The notes beneath the pieces are model-generated. The model searched no databases, had not been told where the DNA came from, and saw only the letters and a program-made list of their open reading frames with translations. Of a stretch of DNA of 64,000 nucleotides, positions 245 through 20,252 are shown in pieces (positions within the stretch are counted from its first letter, which is position 1; each line of letters starts with the position of its first letter). The stretch spans positions 147,522 through 211,521 of the forward strand of contig NZ_JAOVZT010000007.1 in the NCBI RefSeq assembly GCF_025716945.1. The letters are read 5' to 3'. This stretch comes from Geodermatophilus sp. YIM 151500 (GTDB taxonomy: Bacteria; Actinomycetota; Actinomycetes; Mycobacteriales; Geodermatophilaceae). The position numbers and the translations under genes are program-made.

Positions 245-907
245 GTGTCCGCCAAGCGCTTCGCCGACCGCCGCGAGGCCGGGCGCCTCCTCGCCCGGGC
301 ACTGACCCCACCGCCGCCGGGACCGATCGTCGTCCTGGGCCTGCCACGCGGCGGCGTCGTGGTGGCCGCGGAGGTGGCCGACGCCCTCGACGCGCCGCTC
401 GACGTGCTCGTCGTCCGCAAGCTCGGCCTGCCCTGGCAACCAGAACTGGCCATGGGGGCGATCGCCGCCGTGGGCGACACGGTGGAGACGGTGGAGACCG
501 AGGCGGTCCTCTCCCGCGTGCGGATCGCGTACGACACCTTCGCGGCCGTCCGCGACGACGAGCTCGTCGAGCTGCGACGGCGCGAGGAGGCCTATCGCGG
601 CGGCCGGCCACCGCTCGACGTCGCCGGGCGTGCCGTGGTCCTCGTGGACGACGGCCTGGCCACCGGCTCGACGATGCGGGCCGCCGTCGCGGCGGTCCGC
701 CGGCAGGGGCCCGCCTCGCTCACCGTCGCCGTGCCGGTCGGGTCGCCGCGGGTCTGCGGCGAGCTGGAGCCGGAGGTCGACCGGATCCTGTGCCTCGAGG
801 CGCCGCGCAGCTTCCGCGCCGTCGGCCAGGCCTACGACGACTTCGGCGAGACGTCCGACGACGAGGTCGTCGCGGCTCTCCGCGGTGCCCGCCCGGCCGC
901 CTCCTGA
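245..907 (+). CDS. phosphoribosyltransferase-domain protein
   Basis: A 220-residue type I phosphoribosyltransferase-fold protein. The PRPP-binding loop is clear: four hydrophobic residues, DDGLATGST at 135-143. An N-terminal PRGG segment lies near residue 36, as in the stand-alone actinobacterial group often called 'phosphoribosyltransferase family' and sometimes fused to dienelactone hydrolase. The real substrate of that group is not established, and nothing here points to purine or pyrimidine salvage specifically. GTG at 245 is chosen because AGGAG lies just before it (231-235). The gene stands alone; the next one begins after a 177-bp regulatory gap. Confidence 0.85.
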   Translation: MSAKRFADRREAGRLLARALTPPPPGPIVVLGLPRGGVVVAAEVADALDAPLDVLVVRKLGLPWQPELAMGAIAAVGDTVETVETEAVLSRVRIAYDTFAAVRDDELVELRRREEAYRGGRPPLDVAGRAVVLVDDGLATGSTMRAAVAAVRRQGPASLTVAVPVGSPRVCGELEPEVDRILCLEAPRSFRAVGQAYDDFGETSDDEVVAALRGARPAAS

Positions 908-1009
908 GCGACCGGCACGACACGACCTGCGCGAGACGAGCGGCCAGGTCCCGGCCGATCGTGACCCTTCCGTCACCGGGGTCGCTGTTCCCCTCCTCAC
1001 ACCCGCGCG

Positions 1010-1015
1010 TAGGCT
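1010..1015 (+). promoter_or_regulatory. candidate -10 element (TAGGCT)
   Basis: TAGGCT fits the actinobacterial TANNNT -10 pattern and would place the start of transcription near 1021-1023, just before the Rex-type box. No convincing -35 hexamer is visible at the right distance. Inferred. Confidence 0.35.
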
Positions 1016-1029
1016 CGTGACCGGACACT

Positions 1030-1047
1030 TTGTGAAGCATTTCACAA
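1030..1047. promoter_or_regulatory. Rex operator (ROP-type redox box)
   Basis: TTGTGAAGCATTTCACAA is a perfect inverted repeat, TTGTGAA-N4-TTCACAA, identical to the Streptomyces Rex consensus. Rex is the NADH/NAD-sensing repressor whose known Streptomyces targets include nuo and cyd operons. It sits 38 bp before the start of the flavoprotein gene that heads the nuo block, just downstream of a TAGGCT -10-like element. Bound repressor would block initiation or early elongation. The box is seen directly; binding is inferred. Confidence 0.85.
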
Positions 1048-1084
1048 GCACGGCGCCACGAGTTCCGGGGAGGAGGGCGCGGCG

Positions 1085-2518
1085 ATGGCCGGCACCGCGA
1101 CACCGCAGGGTCCGTCGCCGGTCGCGCTGCCGTCGTCCGTCGCGCTGCCGTCGTCCGTCGCGCTGCCGTCGCCCGTCGCGCTGCCGTCGTCCGTCGCGCT
1201 GCCGTCGCCCGTCGCGCTGCCGTCGTCCGTCGCGCTGCCGTCACCGGTCCCGCTGCCGTCACCGGGTGACCGGACCAGTGACGTCGTCGTCGTCGGCGCC
1301 GGCCCCGCCGGGTCGAGCGCCGCCTGGCACCTGGCCCGCTCGGGGCTCGACGTCGCCCTCCTCGAGAAGGCCCGCTTCCCCCGCGACAAGGTGTGCGGTG
1401 ACGGGCTGACCCCGCGCGGGGTCAAGGCACTCGACGACATGGGGGTCGACACCTCGCCGGCTGCCGGCTGGGTCCGCCACCGCGGGCTGCGCGTGCGCGG
1501 CGGCGGCCGGGTGGTCGAGGTCGACTGGCCGCAGCTGCGCCGCTGGCCCGACTTCGGTCTCGTCCGCACCCGCCGTGACCTCGATGCGCTGCTCGCCGCC
1601 CATGCGCAGGCCGCCGGCACCCGGCTGCACACCGGGGTCACCGTCACCGGCCCGCTGCTCGACGACGCGGGGCGGGTCGCCGGCGTCCGGGGCGAGGGCC
1701 CGGACGGCGAGCCGCTGACCTGGCGCGCGCGGCTCGTCGTCTCCGCCGAGGGCTGCTCCGGTCGGCTGGCCAAGGCGCTCGGCCTCCATCGCCGCGAGGA
1801 CCGCCCCCTCGGCGTCGCCGTCCGCCGGTACGTGCGCACTCCGCGGACCCACGACGACTACCTCGACATCTCCTTCGACCTCGCACCCGGCGGCCCCAGC
1901 GCCGAGTCGATGCCCGGTTACGGCTGGATCTTCGGCCTGGGCGACGGGACGGCGAACGTCGGGTACGGCCTGCTCGACTCCCGTCGCGGCCGGGGCGACC
2001 AGCGGGCCGTGCTGCGCAAATGGCTGGCGACCCTGCCGCCGGAGTGGCAGCTCGACGACGACCACGCGGTCTCCCCGCTGCGCGGCGCGGGCCTGCCCAT
2101 GGCGCTGCACCGGGCGCCGGCGTACGGCCGTGGGCTGCTGCTGGCCGGTGACGCCGTCGGGGCGGTCAACCCTTTCAACGGCGAGGGGATCAGCTACGCG
2201 ATGGAGACCGGACGGATGGCGGCCGAGACGGCCGCCCGGGCCCTGGCCGCGCCGGAGGGGCCGGCGCGCGAGGCCGAGCTGCGCCGCTATCCCGCACGGC
2301 TGCGGGCCGAGTACGGGCGCCACCACCGGCTGGGCATCGGTTTCCTCGCCCTGCTGAGCCGGCCGGACGTCGTCCGGTTCACGACCGCCCACGGGCTGCC
2401 CCGCCCGGTGCTCGTCGCCGTGGCACTGCGGCTGATGGGCAACCTCACCGACGGCCGGGACGGCGACGGCGTCGACCGCGCCATCGCCGCGATCACCCGC
2501 CTGGTTCCGGCGGTGTGA
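1085..2518 (+). CDS. geranylgeranyl-reductase-family FAD oxidoreductase (menaquinone reductase-like)
   Basis: A 477-residue flavoprotein. After a low-complexity N-terminus the FAD dinucleotide fold begins with VVVVGAGPAGSSAAW (67-81). A KVCGDGLTPRG segment follows near 105-115, and a second FAD contact LLAGDAVGAVNPFNGEGI lies near 355, all typical of the geranylgeranyl reductase family. Actinobacterial relatives such as MenJ saturate an isoprene unit of menaquinone, which fits the position just ahead of nuoA. ATG at 1085 has GGGGAGGAGGG upstream, so the eight-copy hexapeptide repeat (residues 12-59) is probably translated. That extension is unusual; an internal start after it lacks a Shine-Dalgarno sequence. 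Confidence 0.88.
   Translation: MAGTATPQGPSPVALPSSVALPSSVALPSPVALPSSVALPSPVALPSSVALPSPVPLPSPGDRTSDVVVVGAGPAGSSAAWHLARSGLDVALLEKARFPRDKVCGDGLTPRGVKALDDMGVDTSPAAGWVRHRGLRVRGGGRVVEVDWPQLRRWPDFGLVRTRRDLDALLAAHAQAAGTRLHTGVTVTGPLLDDAGRVAGVRGEGPDGEPLTWRARLVVSAEGCSGRLAKALGLHRREDRPLGVAVRRYVRTPRTHDDYLDISFDLAPGGPSAESMPGYGWIFGLGDGTANVGYGLLDSRRGRGDQRAVLRKWLATLPPEWQLDDDHAVSPLRGAGLPMALHRAPAYGRGLLLAGDAVGAVNPFNGEGISYAMETGRMAAETAARALAAPEGPAREAELRRYPARLRAEYGRHHRLGIGFLALLSRPDVVRFTTAHGLPRPVLVAVALRLMGNLTDGRDGDGVDRAIAAITRLVPAV
1118..1261 (+). repeat. eight tandem 18-bp units encoding (P/S)VALPS
   Basis: Eight in-frame 18-bp units encode PVALPS or SVALPS, the last being PVPLPS. Units differ mainly at one base that switches the boundary residue between Ser (TCC) and Pro (CCC). 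This is a minisatellite inside a coding region, probably variable in copy number between strains. Confidence 0.9.
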
Positions 2519-2602
2519 CCGTGCTGCACATCACAACGAAGACGCATGTCGACACGCTGCGTGCACGCCTGGCCGTTGCGCGGAACGTGATCGGACTCAC
2601 CG

Positions 2603-2608
2603 TAGGGT
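2603..2608 (+). promoter_or_regulatory. TAGGGT: -10 element or Shine-Dalgarno of nuoA
   Basis: TAGGGT lies 7 nt before the nuoA ATG. Its AGGG can act as a ribosome binding site. As a -10 element it would put the transcript start at or next to the ATG, giving a leaderless nuoA mRNA. No good -35 is present at normal spacing (TTGCGC at 2576 is 21 nt away). Confidence 0.3.
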
Positions 2609-2615
2609 GCCGCTG

Positions 2616-2978
2616 ATGTTCTCGATGTACGTCCCGATCCTCGGGCTGTTCGCGCTGGCCGCGGCCTTCGCCGTCTTCTCGGTGGCCGTCGCGCCGTTCG
2701 TCGGACCGCGCCGTCACAACCGGGCCAAGCTGGCCGCCTACGAGTGCGGCATCGAGCCGGTCGACCAGCCGCTGACCGGCGGCCGCTTCCCGGTCAAGTA
2801 CTACCTGACGGCGATGCTCTTCATCGTCTTCGACATCGAGATCGTCTTCCTCTACCCGTGGGCCGTGGCCAACGACGCGCTCGGCGTCTTCGGGTTGATC
2901 GAGATGGTCGTCTTCATCGGCACGGTGTTCATCGCGTACGCCTACGTCTGGCGGCGCGGCGGGCTCGAGTGGGACTGA
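2616..2978 (+). CDS. nuoA: NADH-quinone oxidoreductase subunit A
   Basis: A 120-residue membrane subunit of complex I with three hydrophobic helices and the conserved YECGIEP segment followed by the [19 protein letters not shown] region, which identifies NuoA. ATG at 2616 is preferred over a GTG at 2607 because AGGG sits 8 nt upstream and related proteins begin at this point. It is the first of fourteen nuo genes in canonical order and may carry its own promoter (see 2603-2608). Confidence 0.96.
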
Positions 2979-2991
2979 GAGGGCGCAGGCG

Positions 2992-3669
2992 ATGGGACTC
3001 GAGGAGAAGCTGCCCAGCGGCGTGCTGCTGACCACCGTGGAGAAGGTGGTCAACTGGACGCGGAAGTCGTCGCTGTGGCCGGCCACGTTCGGCCTGGCCT
3101 GCTGCGCCATCGAGATGATGGCGACCGGGGCGGGGCGCTACGACCTGGCCCGCTTCGGCATGGAGGTCTTCCGCGCCTCGCCGCGGCAGGCCGACCTCAT
3201 GATCGTGGCCGGCCGGGTCAGCCAGAAGATGGCCCCGGTGCTCCGGCAGATCTACGACCAGATGCCCGAGCCGCGCTGGGTGCTGTCGATGGGCGTGTGC
3301 GCCAGCTCCGGCGGCATGTTCAACAACTACGCAGTCGTGCAGGGCGTCGACCACATCGTGCCCGTCGACATGTACCTGCCCGGCTGCCCGCCGCGGCCGG
3401 AGATGTTGATGGACGCCATCCTCAAGCTGCACCACAAGATCATGAACGAGCCCCTCGGTGACCGGCGCGCCCGCCACCTGGAGCAGGCCCGGCAGGAGGG
3501 CCGCACACGCGACCTGCTGGTCGAGATGCCCTCCACGGTGCGCGCCGACAAGAACCTGCGCCGTGCCTACGAGGAGGCCGCCGCCCAGGGCCGGACCGGT
3601 CAGTTCGCCATCGAGCAGCGCGACGGCAACGTCGTCCTGCCCGAGCAGCTGGGTCGGGTCGCCCGATGA
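2992..3669 (+). CDS. nuoB: NADH-quinone oxidoreductase subunit B
   Basis: A 225-residue peripheral-arm subunit holding the terminal [4Fe-4S] cluster N2, which passes electrons to quinone. Its ligands are visible as the tandem C37-C38, C103 (GVCASSGG) and C132 (PGCPPRPE). The length includes a C-terminal tail of about 50 residues beyond the usual core. Thirteen bases separate it from nuoA and its stop overlaps nuoC (ATGA), so translation is coupled. Confidence 0.97.
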
Positions 3670-4402
3670 CCGGTCCGGGTGACCGCAGCGGACGCACCGA
3701 GGCCTCGGAGGGCGCGACCGCACCGAGCGGCGGCTTCCGCAAGGGCGCGTTCGGCGTCACCGGCAGCGGCGACACCTCCGGCTTCGGCGGGCTGGTGCGG
3801 GTCGAGCCGGGCGGCGCCGTGGCCCTGCACTCGACCGAGCGGCCCTACGGCGGCTACTTCGACGAGGTCACCGACGCCCTGGTCGACGCGGTCGGCGAGC
3901 AGACCTACGCCGCTGCGGTGCAGCGGGTGCTCGTCGACCGGGGCGAGATCACCTACTTCGTCGTCCGCGAACACCTGCTCACCCTGGTCCGGGCCCTCCG
4001 CGACGACGAGGCGCTGCGCTTCGAGCTGTGCAGCAGTCTCTCCGGCGTCGACTACCTCGACAGCGGTGGCCCGGCAGCCGCGCCCGGCCGCCCGCGGCTG
4101 CACGTCGTCTACCACCTGACCTCGATGACCTACCGCCGCCGCATCCGGCTGGAGGTCGCGGTCACCGCCGAGGACCCGCACGTCCCGTCGGTCGTCGGCG
4201 TCTACCCGACGGCCGACTGGCACGAGCGGGAGACCTACGACATGTTCGGCGTCGTCTTCGACGGCCACCCGTCGCTCACCCGGATCCTCATGCCCGACGA
4301 CTGGGACGGCTTCCCCCAGCGCAAGGACTACCCGCTCGGCGGCGTCCCGGTCGAGTACCACGACGCGACCATCCCGCCCCCGGACACCCGCCGGAGCTAC
4401 CG

Positions 4403-4406
<4 letters not shown>
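3666..4406 (+). CDS. nuoC: NADH-quinone oxidoreductase subunit C
   Basis: A 246-residue subunit of the complex I quinone module. The 30-kDa-subunit signature is present near the C-terminus: a [18 protein letters not shown] stretch, then [20 protein letters not shown]. The first 45 residues are Gly-, Thr- and Ser-rich and look disordered. Start and stop both overlap neighbours by 4 bp (nuoB and nuoD). NuoC is separate from NuoD here, unlike the E. coli fusion. Confidence 0.96.
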
Positions 4407-5733
<1,327 letters not shown>

Positions 5734-5737
<4 letters not shown>

Positions 5738-6777
5738 CCGCGCTGCCCGGCAGCCCCGAGGGGACGGCGACCACCGGGCTGGACTCGACCCCGGTCGACT
5801 CGCGCCCGGGGACCCTGGCCGAGCTGCCGCCGCTGACGGAGACCACCCGCGAGGAAGCGCGCCAGATCATGGCCCGCTACCCCGAGCCGCGCTCGGCGCT
5901 GCTGCCGATGCTGCACCTGGTGCAGTCGGTCCAGGGCTACGTCTCCCCCGAGGGCGTCGCGCTGTGCGCGGAGGAGCTCGGCCTGACCAAGGCCGAGGTC
6001 GGTGCGGTGGCGACCTTCTACACGATGTACAAGCGTCGCCCGACCGGCCGGCACCTGGTCAGCGTGTGCACGAACACCCTCTGCAACGTGCTCGGCGGGC
6101 AGCGCATCTTCGACGCGCTGGCGGCCGACCTCGGCGTCGGTCACGACGAGACGACCGACGACGGCTCGCTCACCCTCGAGCACGCCGAGTGCCTCGCGGC
6201 CTGCGACTACGCCCCGGTGGTCACCGTCGACTACGAGTTCTACGACCAGCAGGACGTCGACAGCGCCCGCGAGCTGGTCGCCGCGCTCCGCCGCGGGGAG
6301 AAGCCGGACCCCACCCGGGGCGCGCCGCTGACCGACTTCCGCGGCATCTCCCGGCAGCTGGCCGGCTTCACCCAGCACCCCGACCGGGCCGCCGCGCGGG
6401 CCGCGGTCGACGCGCCCATGCAGGACGAGCCCACCCTGCGCGGCGTCCGGCTGGCCGCCGAGCGCGGCGAGGCGGCGCCGCCGCTGCCCCGCCGCCGGGA
6501 GCCCGAGCCGGCGGACCGCGGCGAGCCGCGCGAGACGGTGCGGCCGACGGGCCGCACCGGCCAGACACCGGAGGAGGAGGCCGCTGACGCCCGCGTCGCC
6601 GCGGCCGACACCCCCGCGGAGAAGGCAGGCGCCGCCGAGGCACACCCCGACCGCGGCACCGAGTACGGCCGCCGCGACCCCGGCGAGGGACCTCGTCGAG
6701 GAGAAGGCACGGAGACCCCGGCCACGAAGACGCCCGGCCAGGCCGGGCAGGGAACCTCGATCGAGCGGGAGCGCTGA
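5734..6777 (+). CDS. nuoE: NADH-quinone oxidoreductase subunit E with long C-terminal tail
   Basis: A 347-residue 24-kDa-type subunit. It binds the off-path [2Fe-2S] cluster N1a through C112, C117, C153 and C157 (CTNTLC and CLAAC). The thioredoxin-like core ends near residue 205-220. The remaining 120 or more residues are charged and rich in Arg, Glu, Pro and Gly, probably disordered, and absent from E. coli NuoE (about 166 residues). Start overlaps nuoD by 4 bp; nuoF begins 1 nt after the stop. Confidence 0.95.
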
Positions 6778-6778
6778 C

Positions 6779-8110
6779 ATGCCCCTCACCCCCGTGCTCA
6801 CCTCGCGGTGGGGCGCCGAGCAGTCGTGGCGGCTGGCCACCTACGAGCGGCTCGACGGCTACGTCGCGCTGCGCCGGGCGCTGCGCATGCAGCCCGACGA
6901 GCTGGTCACCCTGGTCAAGGACTCCGGCCTGCGCGGTCGTGGCGGAGCCGGCTTCCCGACCGGCATGAAGTGGAGCTTCATCCCGCAGCCGAAGCCGGGG
7001 GAGACGCCCACCGGCCCCGCGGCGCTGCCCAAGTACCTCGTGGTCAACGCCGACGAGGGCGAGCCGGGCACCTGCAAGGACGTCCCGCTGATGATGGCCG
7101 ACCCGCACTCGCTGGTGGAGGGCGTGATCATCTCCGCGTACGCCATCCGGTCGCACTTCGCCGTCATCTACGTCCGGGGCGAGGCCGTCCACGCCCACCG
7201 CCGGCTGGTGTCCGCGGTCGAGGAGGCCTACGCGGCCGGCTACCTGGGCCGCGACGTCCTCGGCTCGGGCTACGACCTGGAGCTGGTCGTCCACGCCGGC
7301 GCGGGTGCCTACATCTGCGGCGAGGAGACCGCCCTGCTCGACTCGCTGGAGGGGTACCGGGGCCAGCCGCGGCTCAAGCCGCCGTTCCCCGCGGTCGCCG
7401 GCCTCTACGGGGCGCCCACCGTGATCAACAACGTGGAGACGCTGGCCAGCGTCCCGTTCGTCGTCCGGGGCGGCGCCGACTGGTTCAAGGAGTTCGGGCC
7501 GGAGAAGAGCCCGGGTCCCAAGATCTACTCGATCTCCGGCCGCGTCGTCCGGCCCGGCCAGTACGAGTGCCCGATGGGCACGACGATGCGCGAGCTGATC
7601 GACATGGCCGGCGGCATCCGCCCCGGCCACGAGCTCAAGTTCTGGACGCCGGGCGGGTCGTCGACGCCCTACTTCACCGCCGAGCACCTCGACGTCCCGC
7701 TGGACTTCGACTCGGTCGCCGCCGCGGGCTCCATGCTCGGCACGACCGCGCTGATGGTCTTCGACGAGACCGACTCGATCGTCGAGGCCACCCTGCGGTT
7801 CACCGAGTTCTACGCGCACGAGAGCTGCGGCAAGTGCACCCCGTGCCGCGAGGGCACCTTTTGGCTGGTCCAGATCCTCGAGCGGCTGGTGCACGGCGAG
7901 GGCACCGCCCGCGACCTCGACACCCTGCTCGACACCTGCGACAACATCCTCGGCCGGTCGTTCTGCGCCCTCGGCGACGGCGCGACCAGCTGCATCTCCA
8001 GCTCCCTGAAGTACTTCAAGGACGACTACGTGGCCCTGCTGCCCCCCGAGGAACGGGCCCGCCTGGGCCGCTCCCTGCCCATCGAGCCGGTGAAGGTCGG
8101 TGCCGCCTGA
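6779..8110 (+). CDS. nuoF: NADH-quinone oxidoreductase subunit F
   Basis: A 443-residue 51-kDa-type subunit, the NADH-oxidising flavoprotein of complex I. The glycine-rich NADH motif [10 protein letters not shown] (about 54-63), the FMN motif [12 protein letters not shown], the [11 protein letters not shown] segment and the [4Fe-4S] ligands [11 protein letters not shown] with a distant FCALGDGA are all present. Only one base separates it from nuoE, and its TGA overlaps the nuoG ATG. Confidence 0.97.
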
Positions 8111-13968: not shown

Positions 13969-15876
13969 GTGGCTGAGGCCGCGCCCGCCGAGGGGCTCGC
14001 CGCCGCCGCCTGGCTGCTGATCGCCCTGCCGATGGCCGGCGCCGCCGTCCTGCTGCTCGCCGGCCGGCGGGCCGATCGCTGGGGGCACCTGCTCGGCTGC
14101 GCCACCGTCCTCGCGGCCTTCCTGCTCGGGGTCCTGATCACCGTCGACGTCGCCGGGCTGCCCGAGCGGTCGGCCGCGGTGGAGCTGTTCACGTTCATCG
14201 CCACCGGATCGCTCGACGTCCGCGCCGGGCTGCTGGTCGATCCGCTGTCGCTGGCCTTCGTGCTGCTGATCACCGGCGTGGGCTCGCTGATCCACGTCTA
14301 CTCGGTCGGCTACATGGCGCACGACCCGGGACGCCGCCGGTTCTTCGGCTACCTCAACCTCTTCGTCGCCGCGATGCTGCTGCTCGTCCTGGGCGACAGC
14401 TTCGTCGCGCTCTACGTCGGCTGGGAGGGCGTCGGCCTGGCGTCCTACCTGCTCATCGCCTTCTGGTACCGCCGCCCGGCCGCGGCCACGGCCGCCAAGA
14501 AGGCGTTCATCATGAACCGGGTCGGCGACGTCGGCCTGGCGCTGGCGATCTTCGTGATGTTCGCCCAGCTGGGCACCACGTCCTTCGAGGGGGTCTTCGG
14601 CTCGGTCGAGGCGCTGGCCGGCGGCACCCTCACCGCCCTCGGCCTGCTGCTGCTGCTCGGCGCCTGCGGGAAGTCCGGGCAGTTCCCGCTGCAGTCCTGG
14701 CTGCCCGACGCGATGGAGGGCCCCACCCCGGTCTCCGCGCTGATCCACGCGGCGACGATGGTCACCGCCGGGGTCTACCTGATCGCCCGGGCGGCGCCCA
14801 TCTACGACCAGACGCCGACGGCGCGGGCCGCCGTCCTGGCGGTCGGGGCGCTCACCCTGATGATCGGCGCCATCGCCGGCTGCGCCTACGACGACATCAA
14901 GAAGGTGCTGGCCTGGTCGACGGTCAGCCAGATCGGCTACATGTTCCTGGCCGTCGGCCTCGGCCCGGTCGGTTACGCCGCGGGGCTGGCCCACCTGCTC
15001 ACCCACGGCTTCTTCAAGGCCGGCCTGTTCCTCGGCGCCGGATCGGTGATGCACGCGATGGGCGACCAGGTCGACATGCGCCGCTTCGGCGGGCTGGCCC
15101 GCAAGGTGCCGATCACCTTCGTCACCTTCGGCCTGGGCTACCTGGCCCTCATCGGGTTCCCGTTCCTGTCGGGCTACTTCACGAAGGACGCGATCATCGA
15201 GGCCGCGCTGGACCGCGGCGACACCTGGGGGCTGGTGCTGGGCGGGGTGGCGATCCTCGGCGCCGGGCTGACCGCGTTCTACATGACCCGGCTCATGCTG
15301 CTGACGTTCGCCGGGAAGGCGCGGTGGACCGACGACCAGCACCCGCACGAGTCCCCGCCGGTGATGACCGTGCCGATGATCCTGCTGGCGGTCGGGTCGG
15401 TCGGCGCGGGCTTCGTGCTCGTCTCGGTCGCCCCGCTGGCCGACTGGCTGGAGCCGGTGTTCGGCGAGCCGGCCGAGCCCGAGCACGTGATCGCCCCGGC
15501 CCTGGTCGCCGCCGTGGTCACCGCGGTCGCCGCGGCGGGGGTGGTCGCGGCCTGGCTGTTCGTCGGCCGCCGCGAGGTGCCGCTCACCGCTCCGGCGCGG
15601 GTGTCGCCGGTGACCCGGGCGGCGCGCAACGCGCTGTACGCCGACACGGTCAACGAGTCGCTGTTCATGCGTCCCGGGCAGTGGCTGACCCGGGCGCTGG
15701 TGTGGGTCGACAACCGCGGTGTCGACGGCGCCGTCAACGGACTGGCCGCCGCGTTCGGCGGGTCGTCGTCCCGGCTCGGCCGCGCGCAGACCGGCTTCGT
15801 GCGCACCTACGCGCTCGGCATGCTGGGCGGCGCCGTCGTCGTCGCGGGCGCGCTGCTGGCGGTGACCGCCGGGTGA
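13969..15876 (+). CDS. nuoL: NADH-quinone oxidoreductase subunit L
   Basis: A 635-residue antiporter-like proton-pumping subunit at the end of the membrane arm. Key residues sit in YVGWEGVGLASYLLI (helix 5 Glu), ACGKSGQFPLQSWLPDAMEGPTPVSALIHAATMV (helix 7-8 Lys and the broken-helix Pro) and LLTHGFFKAGLFLGAGS. The C-terminus forms the lateral helix and last transmembrane helix. GTG at 13969 is chosen; the 74-nt gap after nuoK contains several other GTGs in other frames. Confidence 0.95.
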   Translation: MAEAAPAEGLAAAAWLLIALPMAGAAVLLLAGRRADRWGHLLGCATVLAAFLLGVLITVDVAGLPERSAAVELFTFIATGSLDVRAGLLVDPLSLAFVLLITGVGSLIHVYSVGYMAHDPGRRRFFGYLNLFVAAMLLLVLGDSFVALYVGWEGVGLASYLLIAFWYRRPAAATAAKKAFIMNRVGDVGLALAIFVMFAQLGTTSFEGVFGSVEALAGGTLTALGLLLLLGACGKSGQFPLQSWLPDAMEGPTPVSALIHAATMVTAGVYLIARAAPIYDQTPTARAAVLAVGALTLMIGAIAGCAYDDIKKVLAWSTVSQIGYMFLAVGLGPVGYAAGLAHLLTHGFFKAGLFLGAGSVMHAMGDQVDMRRFGGLARKVPITFVTFGLGYLALIGFPFLSGYFTKDAIIEAALDRGDTWGLVLGGVAILGAGLTAFYMTRLMLLTFAGKARWTDDQHPHESPPVMTVPMILLAVGSVGAGFVLVSVAPLADWLEPVFGEPAEPEHVIAPALVAAVVTAVAAAGVVAAWLFVGRREVPLTAPARVSPVTRAARNALYADTVNESLFMRPGQWLTRALVWVDNRGVDGAVNGLAAAFGGSSSRLGRAQTGFVRTYALGMLGGAVVVAGALLAVTAG

Positions 15877-15919
15877 ACCGAGAACTGCTCCCCAGGACCG
15901 ACGGAGAGGTGCGCCGACG

Positions 15920-17647
15920 GTGAGTGCGTCCCTGTACCTGGTCGCCATGATCGCGGTGCCCGCGGTCGGCGCGGCCGTCACCGCCGCGCTGCCCGGCGCG
16001 CCCGAGGGTCGCGACGAGCGCGCCAAGCGGCTGGCCCTGGGCACCAGCCTGGTGGTCCTGGTGCTCGCCGTGCTGGCCGCGCTGGCCTTCGACCCCGGCG
16101 GCGACCGCTTCCAACTGACGTCGTCGGTGTCCTGGATCCCCGACTTCGGGGTCTCCTTCGCCCTCGGCGTCGACGGCATCGCCCTGGTGATGCTGCTGCT
16201 CATCGGCGTCCTGGTGCCGGTGGTGGTGCTGGCCTCGTGGCGCGACACCGCCCCCGGCGAGCGCTCGATGCGCACGTTCTTCGCCTGGCTGCTGCTGCTC
16301 GAGTCGATGATGGTCGGGGTCTTCGCCGCGACGGACGTGTTCCTCTTCTACGTCTTCTTCGAGGCGATGCTCGTCCCGATGTACTTCCTGATCGGCAGCT
16401 TCGGCGGGCCGCGCCGGCAGTACGCCGCGGTGAAGTTCTTCCTGTACAGCCTGGTCGGCGGGCTGGTGATGCTCGCCGCGGTCATCGGCCTGTACGTGGT
16501 CAGCAGCAGCTCCCTCGGCGAGGGCACCTTCGCCTTCGACGCCCTGCGCTCGATCGAGATCGACCCGGGTGTGCAGAAGCTGCTGTTCCTCGGCTTCTTC
16601 GTCGCCTTCGCCATCAAGGCGCCGCTCGTGCCGTTCCACACCTGGCTGCCCGATTCCGGTGCCGAGGCGCCCATCGGTGGCGCGGTGCTGCTGGTCGGCG
16701 TGCTGGACAAGGTGGGCACCTTCGGGTTCCTGCGCTACTGCCTGCCGCTGTTCCCCGACGCGTCCCGCGACTTCGCGCCGTGGGTGCTGGCGCTCGCCGT
16801 GGCGGGCATCCTCTACGCCGCGCTGCTGGCCATGGGCCAGAGCGACATGAAGCGGTTGGTGTCCTACACGTCGATCTCGCACTTCGGGTTCATCGCGCTG
16901 GGCATCTTCGCGTTCAGCACCGAGGCGGCCACCGGCGCGGTGCTGTACATGGTCAACCACGGCATCGCCACCGGGCTGCTGTTCCTCGTCGTCGGCATGC
17001 TCATCGCCCGGGGCGGGTCGCGGCGCATCGCCGACTACGGCGGCGTCGCGAGCCGGGCACCGCTGCTGGCCGGCGCCTTCCTCGTCGCCGGCCTGGCGTC
17101 GCTGGCCCTGCCGGGCACCAACAGCTTCGTCAGCGAGTTCCTGGTGCTCATCGGCTCGTTCCCGACGCGGCCGGTGTTCACCGTCCTGGCGACCGTCGGC
17201 ATCATCCTGGCCGCTCTCTACATCCTGCTGATGTACCAGCGCACGATGCACGGCCCGCCCCGCGGCGTCCTGGTGGGCGCCGACGACACCACCGGCGGGC
17301 ACGGTGCGCCCGACCGGGAGGACGCCGCGGCGGAGGCGGTGCCCGCGGCCGAGGCGGCGCCCGCGTCGGAGACGGTGCCCGCGTCGGCTGCGGAGGCCGG
17401 CGCGGCGACGGCGACCGCCACCGCGACCGAGGCCGCCCCGCGCGCCGGGTCGCTGCGCGTCCGCGACCTCGACCGGCGCGAGCTCGCGGTCGTCACGCCG
17501 CTGATCGCGCTGATCCTCGCGCTCGGCTTCTACCCGCAGCCCGTGCTGGACCTGATCGAGCCGGCCGTCGCCGCGACCATGTCCGACGTCGGCGCCGATC
17601 CTGCCGGCACCGCACCCGACACCGACCCGACCGGGGGGACCGACTGA
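15920..17647 (+). CDS. nuoM: NADH-quinone oxidoreductase subunit M with Ala-rich insertion
   Basis: A 575-residue antiporter-like subunit. Conserved pumping segments include FYVFFEAMLVPMYFLIG, the Lys of IKAPLVPFHTWLPDSGAEAP and MKRLVSYTSISHFGFI. Between the penultimate and last helices (residues about 455-515) is an insertion of Ala, Glu, Thr and Ser repeats absent from E. coli NuoM; it is probably a disordered surface loop. GTG at 15920 has GGAGAGG upstream. Its stop overlaps nuoN (TGATG). Confidence 0.95.
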   Translation: MSASLYLVAMIAVPAVGAAVTAALPGAPEGRDERAKRLALGTSLVVLVLAVLAALAFDPGGDRFQLTSSVSWIPDFGVSFALGVDGIALVMLLLIGVLVPVVVLASWRDTAPGERSMRTFFAWLLLLESMMVGVFAATDVFLFYVFFEAMLVPMYFLIGSFGGPRRQYAAVKFFLYSLVGGLVMLAAVIGLYVVSSSSLGEGTFAFDALRSIEIDPGVQKLLFLGFFVAFAIKAPLVPFHTWLPDSGAEAPIGGAVLLVGVLDKVGTFGFLRYCLPLFPDASRDFAPWVLALAVAGILYAALLAMGQSDMKRLVSYTSISHFGFIALGIFAFSTEAATGAVLYMVNHGIATGLLFLVVGMLIARGGSRRIADYGGVASRAPLLAGAFLVAGLASLALPGTNSFVSEFLVLIGSFPTRPVFTVLATVGIILAALYILLMYQRTMHGPPRGVLVGADDTTGGHGAPDREDAAAEAVPAAEAAPASETVPASAAEAGAATATATATEAAPRAGSLRVRDLDRRELAVVTPLIALILALGFYPQPVLDLIEPAVAATMSDVGADPAGTAPDTDPTGGTD

Positions 17648-19197
17648 TGGGCGACATCACCGCCCCCGACCTCTCGCTGGCCGCCCTCGCCCCGCTGCTG
17701 TTCGTCTTCGGCGCCGCCTGCGTCGGCGTGCTGGTCGAGGCGTTCGGCCCGCGGGGCAACCGGCAGCCGGTGCAGCTCGCCGTCGCCCTCGTCGGCACCC
17801 TGGGCGGGCTGGTCAGCGTCCTGCTGCTGGCCGGCCGCGGCGAGGTCACCGCCGGCGGAGCGCTCGCGGTCGACGGCGCCGCGCTGTTCCTGCAGGCCGT
17901 GATCGCCGGGCTCGGCGCGCTGTCGATCCTGCTGTTCGCCGAGCGGGCGCTGGACCCGGCCCGGTCGGCGTTCGTCACCTCCGCGGCCGTCCCGGTGGGC
18001 AGCCCGCGCGACCGCGAGCAGGCCATGTCACCGCGGGTGCAGACCGAGGTCTACCCGTTGGCCACCTTCGCCATCGGCGGCATGATGCTGTTCGCCGCGA
18101 GCAACGACCTGCTCATCATGTTCGTCGCGCTCGAGGTGCTCAGCCTTCCGCTGTACCTGATCAGCGGGATGGCGCGGCGACGGCGGCTGCTGTCGCAGGA
18201 GGCGGCGGTCAAGTACTTCCTCCTCGGCGCCTTCGCGTCGGGCTTCTTCCTCTACGGCCTGGCCCTCGTCTACGGCGCCACCGGCAGCATCCGGTTGTCC
18301 GACGTCCGCGCCTACGCCGCCGTCGGCGGTGCCGACGTGCTGCTGGTTCTGGGCCTGGCGCTGCTCGTCGTCGGACTGATGTTCAAGGCCAGCGTCGCCC
18401 CGTTCCACACCTGGACGCCGGACGTCTACCAGGGCGCCCCGACACCGGTCACCGCGTTCATGGCCGCCTGCACCAAGGTCGCCGCCTTCGCCGCCGTGCT
18501 GCGGCTGCTCTACGTCGCCTTCGGCACCAGCGAGTGGACCTGGCGGCCGCTGGTCTACGGCATCGCCATCGTGTCGATGGTCGTCGGCGCCGTCCTCGGG
18601 CTCACCCAGACCGACCTCAAGCGGATGCTCGCCTACTCCTCCATCGCGCACGCCGGGTTCCTGCTCGTCGGTGTCATCGCGCTCGGCGCCGGCAGCGACG
18701 GCGGCGGCTCCGGGCTGTCGTCGACGATGTTCTACCTGCTCGCCTACGGCCTCACCACGCTCGGCGCGTTCGCGGTGCTCACCCTGGTCCGCGACGGCGA
18801 CGGGGAGGCCACGCACCTGTCGCAGTGGGCCGGCCTGGCCCAGCGCTCGCCGCTCACCGCAGCGATCATGGGCATCTTCCTGCTCGCCCTCGCCGGCATC
18901 CCGCTCACCAGCGGCTTCACCGGCAAGTTCGCCGTGTTCCGAGCCGCGATCGAGGACGGCGCCTGGCCGCTGGTCCTGGTCGCGGTGCTGGCCAGCGCGG
19001 TCGCGGCGTTCTTCTACGTCCGGGTCATCGTGCTCATGTACTTCTCCGCACCCGCGGAGGAGGGCCCGACCGTCGGCGTCCCGGGGCTGCCCACGACCAT
19101 CGCGCTCGCCGTGACCGTGACCGCCACGCTGGTGCTCGGCGTCGCGCCCGGGCCGGTGCTCGACCTGGCCCAGCGGGCGGCTATCTTCGTCGGTTGA
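17647..19197 (+). CDS. nuoN: NADH-quinone oxidoreductase subunit N
   Basis: A 516-residue antiporter-like subunit, the last of the operon. Diagnostic segments are FVALEVLSLPLYLISGMARR, KYFLLGAFASGFFLYG, the Lys of FKASVAPFHTWTPDVYQGAPTP and LKRMLAYSSIAHAGF. ATG at 17647 overlaps the nuoM stop, and its own TGA overlaps the ATG of the polyprenyl synthase, which suggests co-translation of that gene with complex I. Confidence 0.95.
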   Translation: MGDITAPDLSLAALAPLLFVFGAACVGVLVEAFGPRGNRQPVQLAVALVGTLGGLVSVLLLAGRGEVTAGGALAVDGAALFLQAVIAGLGALSILLFAERALDPARSAFVTSAAVPVGSPRDREQAMSPRVQTEVYPLATFAIGGMMLFAASNDLLIMFVALEVLSLPLYLISGMARRRRLLSQEAAVKYFLLGAFASGFFLYGLALVYGATGSIRLSDVRAYAAVGGADVLLVLGLALLVVGLMFKASVAPFHTWTPDVYQGAPTPVTAFMAACTKVAAFAAVLRLLYVAFGTSEWTWRPLVYGIAIVSMVVGAVLGLTQTDLKRMLAYSSIAHAGFLLVGVIALGAGSDGGGSGLSSTMFYLLAYGLTTLGAFAVLTLVRDGDGEATHLSQWAGLAQRSPLTAAIMGIFLLALAGIPLTSGFTGKFAVFRAAIEDGAWPLVLVAVLASAVAAFFYVRVIVLMYFSAPAEEGPTVGVPGLPTTIALAVTVTATLVLGVAPGPVLDLAQRAAIFVG

Positions 19198-20252
19198 TGA
19201 CCGGAGCCCGCGCCGCAGTCGGCAGCACGCCTCCCGACGCCTGGCACCGGGGCTCCACCCCGGCGTCGACGATCGGGCCGTGGCTGCCCGACGGCGCGCT
19301 CGGCGACGCGCTCGCCGACGGCCTGGCGGCCGTCGAGGCGGCGCTCGCGGCCGCCGTCGACAACGACCACCCGTTCGTCCGCGAGGCCGCCGGGCACCTC
19401 ATGGCCGCGGGCGGCAAGCGGTTCCGCCCGCTGCTGGCGCTGCTCGCCGCCCAGCTCGGCGACCCGGCCGCTCCCGAGGTGGTCCGCGCCGCCGTGGTGT
19501 GCGAGCTCACCCACCTGGCCACGCTCTACCACGACGACGTCATGGACGAGGCCACCGTGCGGCGGGGGGCGCCCAGCGCCAACAGCCGGTGGAGCAACAG
19601 CGTCGCGATCCTGACCGGCGACCTGCTGTTCGCCCGCGCGTCCGACCTGCTGGCCGACCTGGGCCCGGAAGCGGTGCGCATCCAGGCGCGGACCTTCGAG
19701 CGGCTGGTGACCGGGCAGATCCGGGAGACCGTGGGCGCCGCTCCGGGCGACGACCCGGTGGCCCACTACCTCGACGTGCTCGCCGACAAGACCGGCTCGC
19801 TCGTGGCGACGTCCGCCCGCTTCGGCGCGGCCTTCGCGGGGGTGCCCGCGCCGCTGGTGGCCGAGCTGACCGCGTTCGGCGAGGAGGTCGGCGTGGCCTT
19901 CCAGCTGTCCGACGACCTGCTCGACATCGTCAGCGCCGACGGCTCCTCCGGCAAGGAGCCCGGCACCGACCTGCGCGAGGGCATCGCCACGCTGCCCGTG
20001 CTGTTCGCGCTGGCCGGCGACGACCCGGCGGAGGCGCGGCTGCGCGAGCTGGTGTCCCGGCCGGTCACCGACGACGCCGAGCACGCCGAGGCGCTGTCGC
20101 TGCTGCGCGCGTCGACCGCGCTCGTCCGCGCCACCGGGGTGCTGCGCGCCTACGCCGACCGGGCGCAGGCACGGCTGGAGGCCGTGCCGCCCGGCGACGT
20201 CCGCGACGCGTTCACCGCCCTCTGCGACTACGTGGTCACCCGCAGCAGCTGA
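19197..20252 (+). CDS. trans-polyprenyl diphosphate synthase
   Basis: A 351-residue all-trans isoprenyl diphosphate synthase. The first Asp-rich motif is DDVMD (113-117) followed by RRG, and the second is DDLLD (239-243); the GGKRFRPLL motif for isopentenyl diphosphate binding is upstream. Small residues before the first DDxxD are expected in long-chain synthases of the hepta- to nonaprenyl class. Placement after nuoN with an overlapping TGATG suggests it makes the menaquinone tail. Exact chain length cannot be read from the sequence. Confidence 0.9.
   Translation: MTGARAAVGSTPPDAWHRGSTPASTIGPWLPDGALGDALADGLAAVEAALAAAVDNDHPFVREAAGHLMAAGGKRFRPLLALLAAQLGDPAAPEVVRAAVVCELTHLATLYHDDVMDEATVRRGAPSANSRWSNSVAILTGDLLFARASDLLADLGPEAVRIQARTFERLVTGQIRETVGAAPGDDPVAHYLDVLADKTGSLVATSARFGAAFAGVPAPLVAELTAFGEEVGVAFQLSDDLLDIVSADGSSGKEPGTDLREGIATLPVLFALAGDDPAEARLRELVSRPVTDDAEHAEALSLLRASTALVRATGVLRAYADRAQARLEAVPPGDVRDAFTALCDYVVTRSS

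Follow-up and report, generated by a model that had tools for sequence, protein, structure and literature searches.

Geodermatophilus sp. YIM 151500 carries, in front of a flavoenzyme gene (GGR) and one gene away from the complex I (nuo) genes, a palindrome that is most likely an operator for the regulator Rex. This raises the question of which genes the operator serves, and whether GGR and nuo are governed together by one NADH-responsive switch. The window considered here is the whole stretch of 64,000 nucleotides. Its relevant features are the following.

1010 to 1015, plus strand: -10-like hexamer TAGGCT of the putative promoter P1, with conserved spacing to the operator; its start site is predicted
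1030 to 1047, no strand: candidate Rex operator (ROP) TTGTGAAGCATTTCACAA, with palindromic arms, from a consensus scan; kept in all 42 related named loci
1085 to 2518, plus strand: GGR, a flavoenzyme of the nuo-linked subfamily of the geranylgeranyl reductase family (superfamily model TIGR02032, 234.2 bits, above the cut-off of 158.8)
1112 to 1260, plus strand: tandem repeat (18-bp unit, 8.3 copies) within the 5' end of the GGR frame, from a repeat search
2587 to 2600, no strand: CRP-like dyad GTGA-N6-TCAC in the GGR-nuoA gap, directly 5' of the P2 hexamer; conserved in relatives
2603 to 2608, plus strand: -10-like hexamer TAGGGT of the putative promoter P2, at the conserved fixed position -13 to -8 of the nuoA ATG (2616)
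2616 to 2978, plus strand: nuoA (NF005922, 206.6 bits, cut-off 155)
2992 to 8110, plus strand: nuoB to nuoF, from NCBIfam matches (outer frame limits; the starts of nuoD and nuoE are not fixed)
13969 to 17647, plus strand: nuoL- and nuoM-type antiporter subunits (Pfam PF00361/PF00662)
19374 to 20252, plus strand: polyprenyl diphosphate synthase 3' of the nuo genes (PF00348, 196.9 bits; domain start taken from the match)

The scan for nuo genes covered the frames up to 8110 and from 13969, with the interval between them and nuoN outside its scope. The PF00348 match spans residues 281-522 of an open reading frame at 18534-20252. A UbiE/MenG-type methyltransferase gene lies about 2-3 kb upstream of the window start and, with GGR, nuo and the polyprenyl diphosphate synthase, makes this a menaquinone and complex I neighbourhood.

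The operator and its probable regulator

The palindrome departs at no position from the ROP consensus TTGTGAANNNNTTCACAA, exactly as the sequence-only reading had claimed. Also as claimed, it stands 5' of the flavoenzyme gene (ATG at 1085) and not directly 5' of nuoA (ATG at 2616). It is the only match to the consensus with three or fewer mismatches in the window. Shuffled sequences held 0.10 such matches on average, with at least one in 9 of 100 shuffles, and none of 100 shuffles held a match to the exact 18-mer at the same tolerance. Throughout the 4.77-Mb genome the consensus finds one site without a mismatch, that at 1030-1047, none with one or two mismatches and eight with three; the reversed consensus, used as a control, gives five matches with up to three. 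Two of the eight weaker sites precede hppA and rex (see below). The other six fall in frames with coding-like composition (four sites) or beside unrelated genes (two), according to a frame test that is rough, for it puts the true operator, too, within a stop-to-stop frame. On these counts the operator is beyond chance, and it would represent a known role in a new layout.

Forty-two named loci of relatives were fetched by GGR protein similarity; nearly all are labelled Geodermatophilaceae, and the set covers genomes that possess GGR. Each of them contains one operator; it is free of mismatches in 37 and has a single one in five, and its arms are kept while the four inner bases vary. That the operator is a vestige or a chance palindrome devoid of function is scarcely credible in the face of this pattern, and of its being the sole site with zero to two mismatches in the genome.

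The proposal presupposes a rex gene, and a profile search of the genome found one (G000:C51:124327-124935; NF003995, 237.7 bits, cut-off 126), about 24 kb upstream of the operator. It is followed by hemA-, hemC- and hemD-type genes. In Streptomyces avermitilis, rex is cotranscribed with hem genes, and Rex controls the nuoA1-N1 operon through an operator at nuoA1 that has been footprinted with the protein, whose binding there is released by NADH (PMC5355995, here and below from the available parts of its text). Because the rex gene is present and this counterpart is bound by Rex, the 18-mer at 1030-1047 is most likely a Rex operator. A weaker operator is found 5' of rex itself in 17 of 17 Geodermatophilaceae genomes examined, the present one included (three mismatches in 13, two in four), as expected for autoregulation. 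The left arm of this rex operator is degenerate (TTGTTC, or TTGTAC in the present genome) and lies 16-17 nt 5' of a TACCGT hexamer (L289-L305); it may double as a -35 element.

Two promoter-like elements

A hexamer of the form TA[GC][AG]NT ends 12-15 nt 5' of the operator in 43 of 43 loci (the 42 named loci and the window). In the wider set of nuoA loci described below, it lies within 30 nt of the operator in 67 of the 76 loci having one, whereas shuffles lead one to expect 1.8. A P1 transcript start at about 1022 is predicted, which would put the operator at about +8 to +25. The available text on S. avermitilis places a Rex footprint on and downstream of the start site of cydA1, and a Rex-protected region at -42 to -16 of nuoA1; the placement of the latter relative to the start thus differs from that predicted here (PMC5355995). 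A simple sigma-70-type promoter scan of positions 900-3000 gave no match.

The second element, P2, occupies the end of the 97-nt gap between GGR and nuoA (2518-2616) and has no Rex site. Among comparable loci (operator 5' of GGR, gap of at least 60 nt, window included), TAG[AG]NT stands exactly at -13 of nuoA in 30 of 31. The dyad GTGA-N6-TCAC is exact in 25 of the same 31 and within one mismatch in 29. Neither the hexamer at -13 nor the dyad is seen in the seven loci whose gaps measure 27-46 nt, or in the four whose gap holds the operator. Outside Geodermatophilaceae, TAG[AG]NT occurs somewhere in 29 of 55 GGR-nuoA gaps, with 3.2 expected. Since a conserved, Rex-free promoter-like element directly precedes nuoA, nuo probably also enjoys Rex-independent transcription from P2. 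This transcription is possibly leaderless, with a nuoA transcript that would begin at the ATG (2616) or close to it.

The earlier suggestion that GGR and nuo are co-transcribed meets with evidence on both sides. Such support as it has is indirect and comes from the single operator (up to one mismatch) at each of the 42 named loci, from the short gaps and from a search of the plus strand between 900 and 3000, which revealed no terminator-like element. On the other hand, with a conserved Rex-free P2 in the 97-nt gap, nuo would not have to rely on the promoter of GGR, and read-through from P1 may be minor.

The sequences show the operator, the rex gene, the conservation of the site and the rule of its position, and the motifs of P1 and P2; binding and repression by Rex, the start sites, read-through and the relative strength of the promoters are inferred. 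In the reading that we favour, with a probability of about 0.78, a Rex-repressed P1 drives GGR and reads into nuo, and P2 gives nuo a Rex-independent supply. At low NADH, Rex would sit just downstream of the transcript start and block P1. At a high NADH/NAD+ ratio it would be released, and a P1 transcript running through GGR into nuoA and the other nuo genes would make GGR and complex I rise together. P2, free of a Rex site, would probably maintain a basal supply of nuo whatever the state of Rex. In this organism, then, Rex control would be almost full for GGR and partial for nuo. The Rex switch thus probably tunes GGR and complex I together; such a switch is largely expected here, the layout being common among relatives.

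Operator position in relatives and the probable target of Rex

Among the 42 named loci (one of which, L053, ends 5' of nuoA), the operator lies upstream of GGR in 38 and between GGR and nuoA in four, and in no case in both places. At least one site with no more than one mismatch is present in 54 of 59 relatives (own genome included), compared with one of 59 for the reversed control. The 100-locus set described below includes eight Geodermatophilaceae loci; four of them, three being from genomes of the named set, have the operator in the GGR-nuoA gap. In the GGR tree these four fall into two separate groups (G003 and G008; G004 and G022), and G014, sister to the latter pair, retains the operator 5' of GGR. 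Genome G031 lacks an adjacent GGR and has its operator 5' of nuoA. With the operator behind GGR in two groups and at nuoA in G031, Rex control of nuo is, to judge by operator position, constant within Geodermatophilaceae and that of GGR dispensable. One family thus displays three layouts: the operator 5' of GGR with P2, the same without P2, and the operator behind GGR. Their comparison separates the control of GGR from that of nuo.

The wider set consists of 100 nuoA loci from 99 genomes and 46 families, hand-picked to spread the families from matches in 197 and 150 genomes. One genome, G041, contributed two loci, and several f1 loci come from the same genomes as named loci. Sites with up to two mismatches near GGR or nuoA were counted as operators, and Rex matches with E between 1e-5 and 1e-3 (G041, G214, G230) were scored as rex-negative. 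Of the 83 rex-positive loci, 75 carry the operator; of the 17 rex-negative ones, a single locus does (Fisher p = 8e-12, ignoring relatedness). Nine of these 17 belong to f8 and four to f40, so that independent losses are few, and the three rex-positive f8 loci likewise have no operator. A GGR adjoins nuoA in no more than two rex-negative loci, of which one has the operator and the other has not. The former, L182 in genome G132, has its operator despite the failure to find rex; this genome is 73% complete, so that rex may just lie outside the assembled part.

The association with rex bears on another identity for the palindrome, namely a CRP/GlxR-type site that would subject the promoter to cAMP-type signalling instead of NADH. 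The 18-mer does contain TGTGANNNNNNTCACA, which we take to be the CRP/GlxR consensus. The genome has 12 matches to the CRP-type HTH model, two of them strong, and CRP-like dyads are found at P2 and upstream of hppA. G132 adds a site at one of the only two rex-negative loci with an adjacent GGR. This identity is nevertheless quite improbable, because the site tracks rex (75 of 83 against one of 17, though through few independent losses) and because, of 68 sites outside Geodermatophilaceae, 63 have A at position 7 and 65 have T at position 12, both of which a CRP site leaves free; this bias is favoured by the choice of sites with at most two mismatches. Furthermore, it is Rex that was footprinted on the S. 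avermitilis nuoA1 counterpart, according to the available text (PMC5355995).

With the Rex identity thus preferred, the position of the operator follows a simple rule. In the 63 rex-positive loci with an adjacent GGR it lies upstream of GGR in 55 and in the gap in four, all Geodermatophilaceae; it is missing from four, of which one is cut by a contig end and three have enough upstream sequence. Where rex is present and no GGR is adjacent, the operator lies within 600 nt 5' of nuoA in 16 of 20 loci. Since it precedes GGR where GGR is adjacent and nuoA where GGR is lacking or displaced, the operator marks, on this positional evidence, the start of the unit to which nuo belongs. This supports a GGR-nuo operon under Rex. 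The earlier placing of GGR in the Rex regulon stands in so far as the operator precedes a GGR that abuts nuoA, as in the 55 of 63 loci; it does not extend to the four of the 42 named loci in which the operator is behind GGR.

These positions also weigh upon the model in which Rex controls GGR only and nuo is transcribed from its own leaderless P2, the two being neighbours rather than an operon. The fixed distance of the P2 hexamer in 30 of 31 comparable loci and the excess of TAG[AG]NT in gaps outside Geodermatophilaceae (29 of 55) speak for this model. We consider it unlikely, as it does not account for the 16 of 20 rex-positive loci with the operator 5' of nuoA where GGR is missing or displaced. 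Nor does it account for the seven relatives with gaps of 27-46 nt, which have the operator 5' of GGR and no P2 hexamer at -13, or for the four loci in which the operator is in the gap with nuoA directly behind it. Together these three classes of loci point to nuo as the selected target.

In two f33 genomes (L172, L173), the nuoA operator is letter for letter the Rex-footprinted S. avermitilis nuoA1 site, as given in the available text (PMC5355995), while that of a third (L174) differs from it. GGR is about 1.9, 3.9 and 6.3 kb from nuoA in the three. Three f15 genomes (L227-L229) have two operators 32 nt apart 5' of nuoA.

The 600 nt upstream of 31 displaced GGR or MenJ-like loci besides the window's own (a scan whose score filter left out the own paralogues L245 to L250) contain a single operator, at L261 in G314, with one mismatch. 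The best upstream site has at least four mismatches in the other 30, and we reject the idea that Rex generally governs displaced GGRs or MenJ-like genes. Of the displaced GGRs examined, one in eight has an operator, that of G314 (beside another at nuoA), and the other seven have none. Judging by G314, GGR does not in every case come under Rex only as a side effect.

Another candidate target is hppA, which is bound by Rex in S. avermitilis (PMC5355995, available parts) and is preceded by a three-mismatch site in the present genome. Among 25 hppA matches from 24 of 30 Geodermatophilaceae genomes, the best upstream site has three mismatches in four, four in one, five in 14 and at least six in six, counts in which the short loci L327 and L332 were misread. 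We do not count hppA as a further target, since its conserved dyad looks equally CRP-like and Rex-like. Indeed, CRP-like dyads recur in many relatives, as GTGA-N6-TCAC at nuoA and in a TGTGATC-N4-TTACA-like form near hppA (L325 and relatives). This suggests that a further regulator, CRP-like in kind, acts on energy genes in Geodermatophilaceae.

The flavoenzyme, menaquinone and known systems

GGR carries an FAD-binding domain. Its nearest solved structure is 3oz2, a digeranylgeranylglycerophospholipid reductase (residues 2-352 of the 415 searched, E = 8.1e-23); this is by name an archaeal-lipid-type reductase. The distance from the operator to the GGR homology is 241 nt here, whereas it does not exceed 100 nt in any of the 38 named loci whose operator lies 5' of GGR. 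The N-terminal extension with the tandem repeat therefore seems peculiar to the present genome.

MenJ, the menaquinone reductase of Mycobacterium, belongs to the same geranylgeranyl reductase superfamily (PMC5936774, PMC9686282, available parts). GGR scores 228.9 bits against the MenJ model NF045655, far below its cut-off of 700. The own MenJ-like paralogue on contig 44 reaches 578.9 bits, also below the cut-off, which is exceeded by L273 (764) and L276 (761) in two rex-less f8 genomes. In a tree of 84 rows, 78 of them different, a branch supported at 98/98 separates all 59 nuo-linked or displaced GGR rows from the MenJ-like set, with which the contig 44 paralogue groups; the tree carries a long-branch warning, above all for L288, L245 and L246. 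Score and tree side rule out that GGR is MenJ. The two also differ in genomic place, and the 600 nt upstream of the MenJ-like gene on contig 44 yielded no Rex site. The sequence-only reading had gone on to propose redox control of menaquinone saturation; in that form the proposal finds no support, given that GGR is not MenJ and that the MenJ-like gene has another location, where no Rex site was found.

Such control may still be hypothesized. Members of Geodermatophilaceae contain chiefly MK-9(H4) (PMC9686282), and deletion of menJ in Mycobacterium tuberculosis is described as yielding MK-9 instead of MK-9(H2) (as told in PMC5936774; available parts of both). One may naturally guess that another reductase carries out the second saturation. 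It is tentatively imagined, with more doubt than confidence, that the nuo-linked GGR is this second side-chain reductase, making H4 where MenJ makes H2. With the polyprenyl diphosphate synthase, the length and saturation of the quinone tail would then come under the NADH switch of complex I, a coupling that the lineages with the operator behind GGR would have given up. Were this true, cells would adapt their quinone to suit the dehydrogenase.

A ggr gene at a nuo locus is also found in Actinomyces oris, although GGR is only a putative counterpart, and the menaquinone methyltransferase gene (ubiE) adjoining ggr there is counted as a further shared feature; a Rex operator goes unmentioned there (PMC5478893, available parts). 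A Tn5 insertion in A. oris ggr shares its coaggregation class with insertions in nuoA, nuoJ and nuoG; this class also takes in two unrelated genes, and nuoH, nuoI and nuoM belong to a weaker class (PMC5478893). The common phenotype of ggr and nuo would be fitting for polarity or for shared function.

The word 'geranylgeranyl' is absent from the main texts, as far as available, of the S. avermitilis and S. coelicolor Rex papers (PMC5355995, PMC8981147), and nuo is unmentioned in the available parts of that on Saccharopolyspora spinosa Rex (PMC4172946). A search of the available literature revealed no paper joining Rex, geranylgeranyl reductase and menaquinone. A prediction that Rex targets GGR may exist in RegPrecise, which was outside the search; the comparative genomics of Rex is the subject of Ravcheev et al. 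(2012).

The closest known systems are the nuoA1-N1 operon of S. avermitilis (PMC5355995) and the Rex regulon of S. coelicolor (PMC8981147). In the available parts of these sources, they share with the present locus the operator type, the regulator family, the nuo operon as a target, the linkage of rex to hem genes and an operator within or just 3' of the promoter. Rex control of nuo is therefore already known in Streptomyces. The difference is that the S. avermitilis operator is at the nuoA1 promoter, whereas here it stands 5' of GGR, with a Rex-free promoter-like element added 5' of nuoA. It is the leading of the operon by GGR and the two-promoter layout that look new. A quinone-tail-type enzyme comes first in the putative complex I operon in most rex-positive families examined; together with P2, this would make a coupling of quinone chemistry to NADH directly testable.
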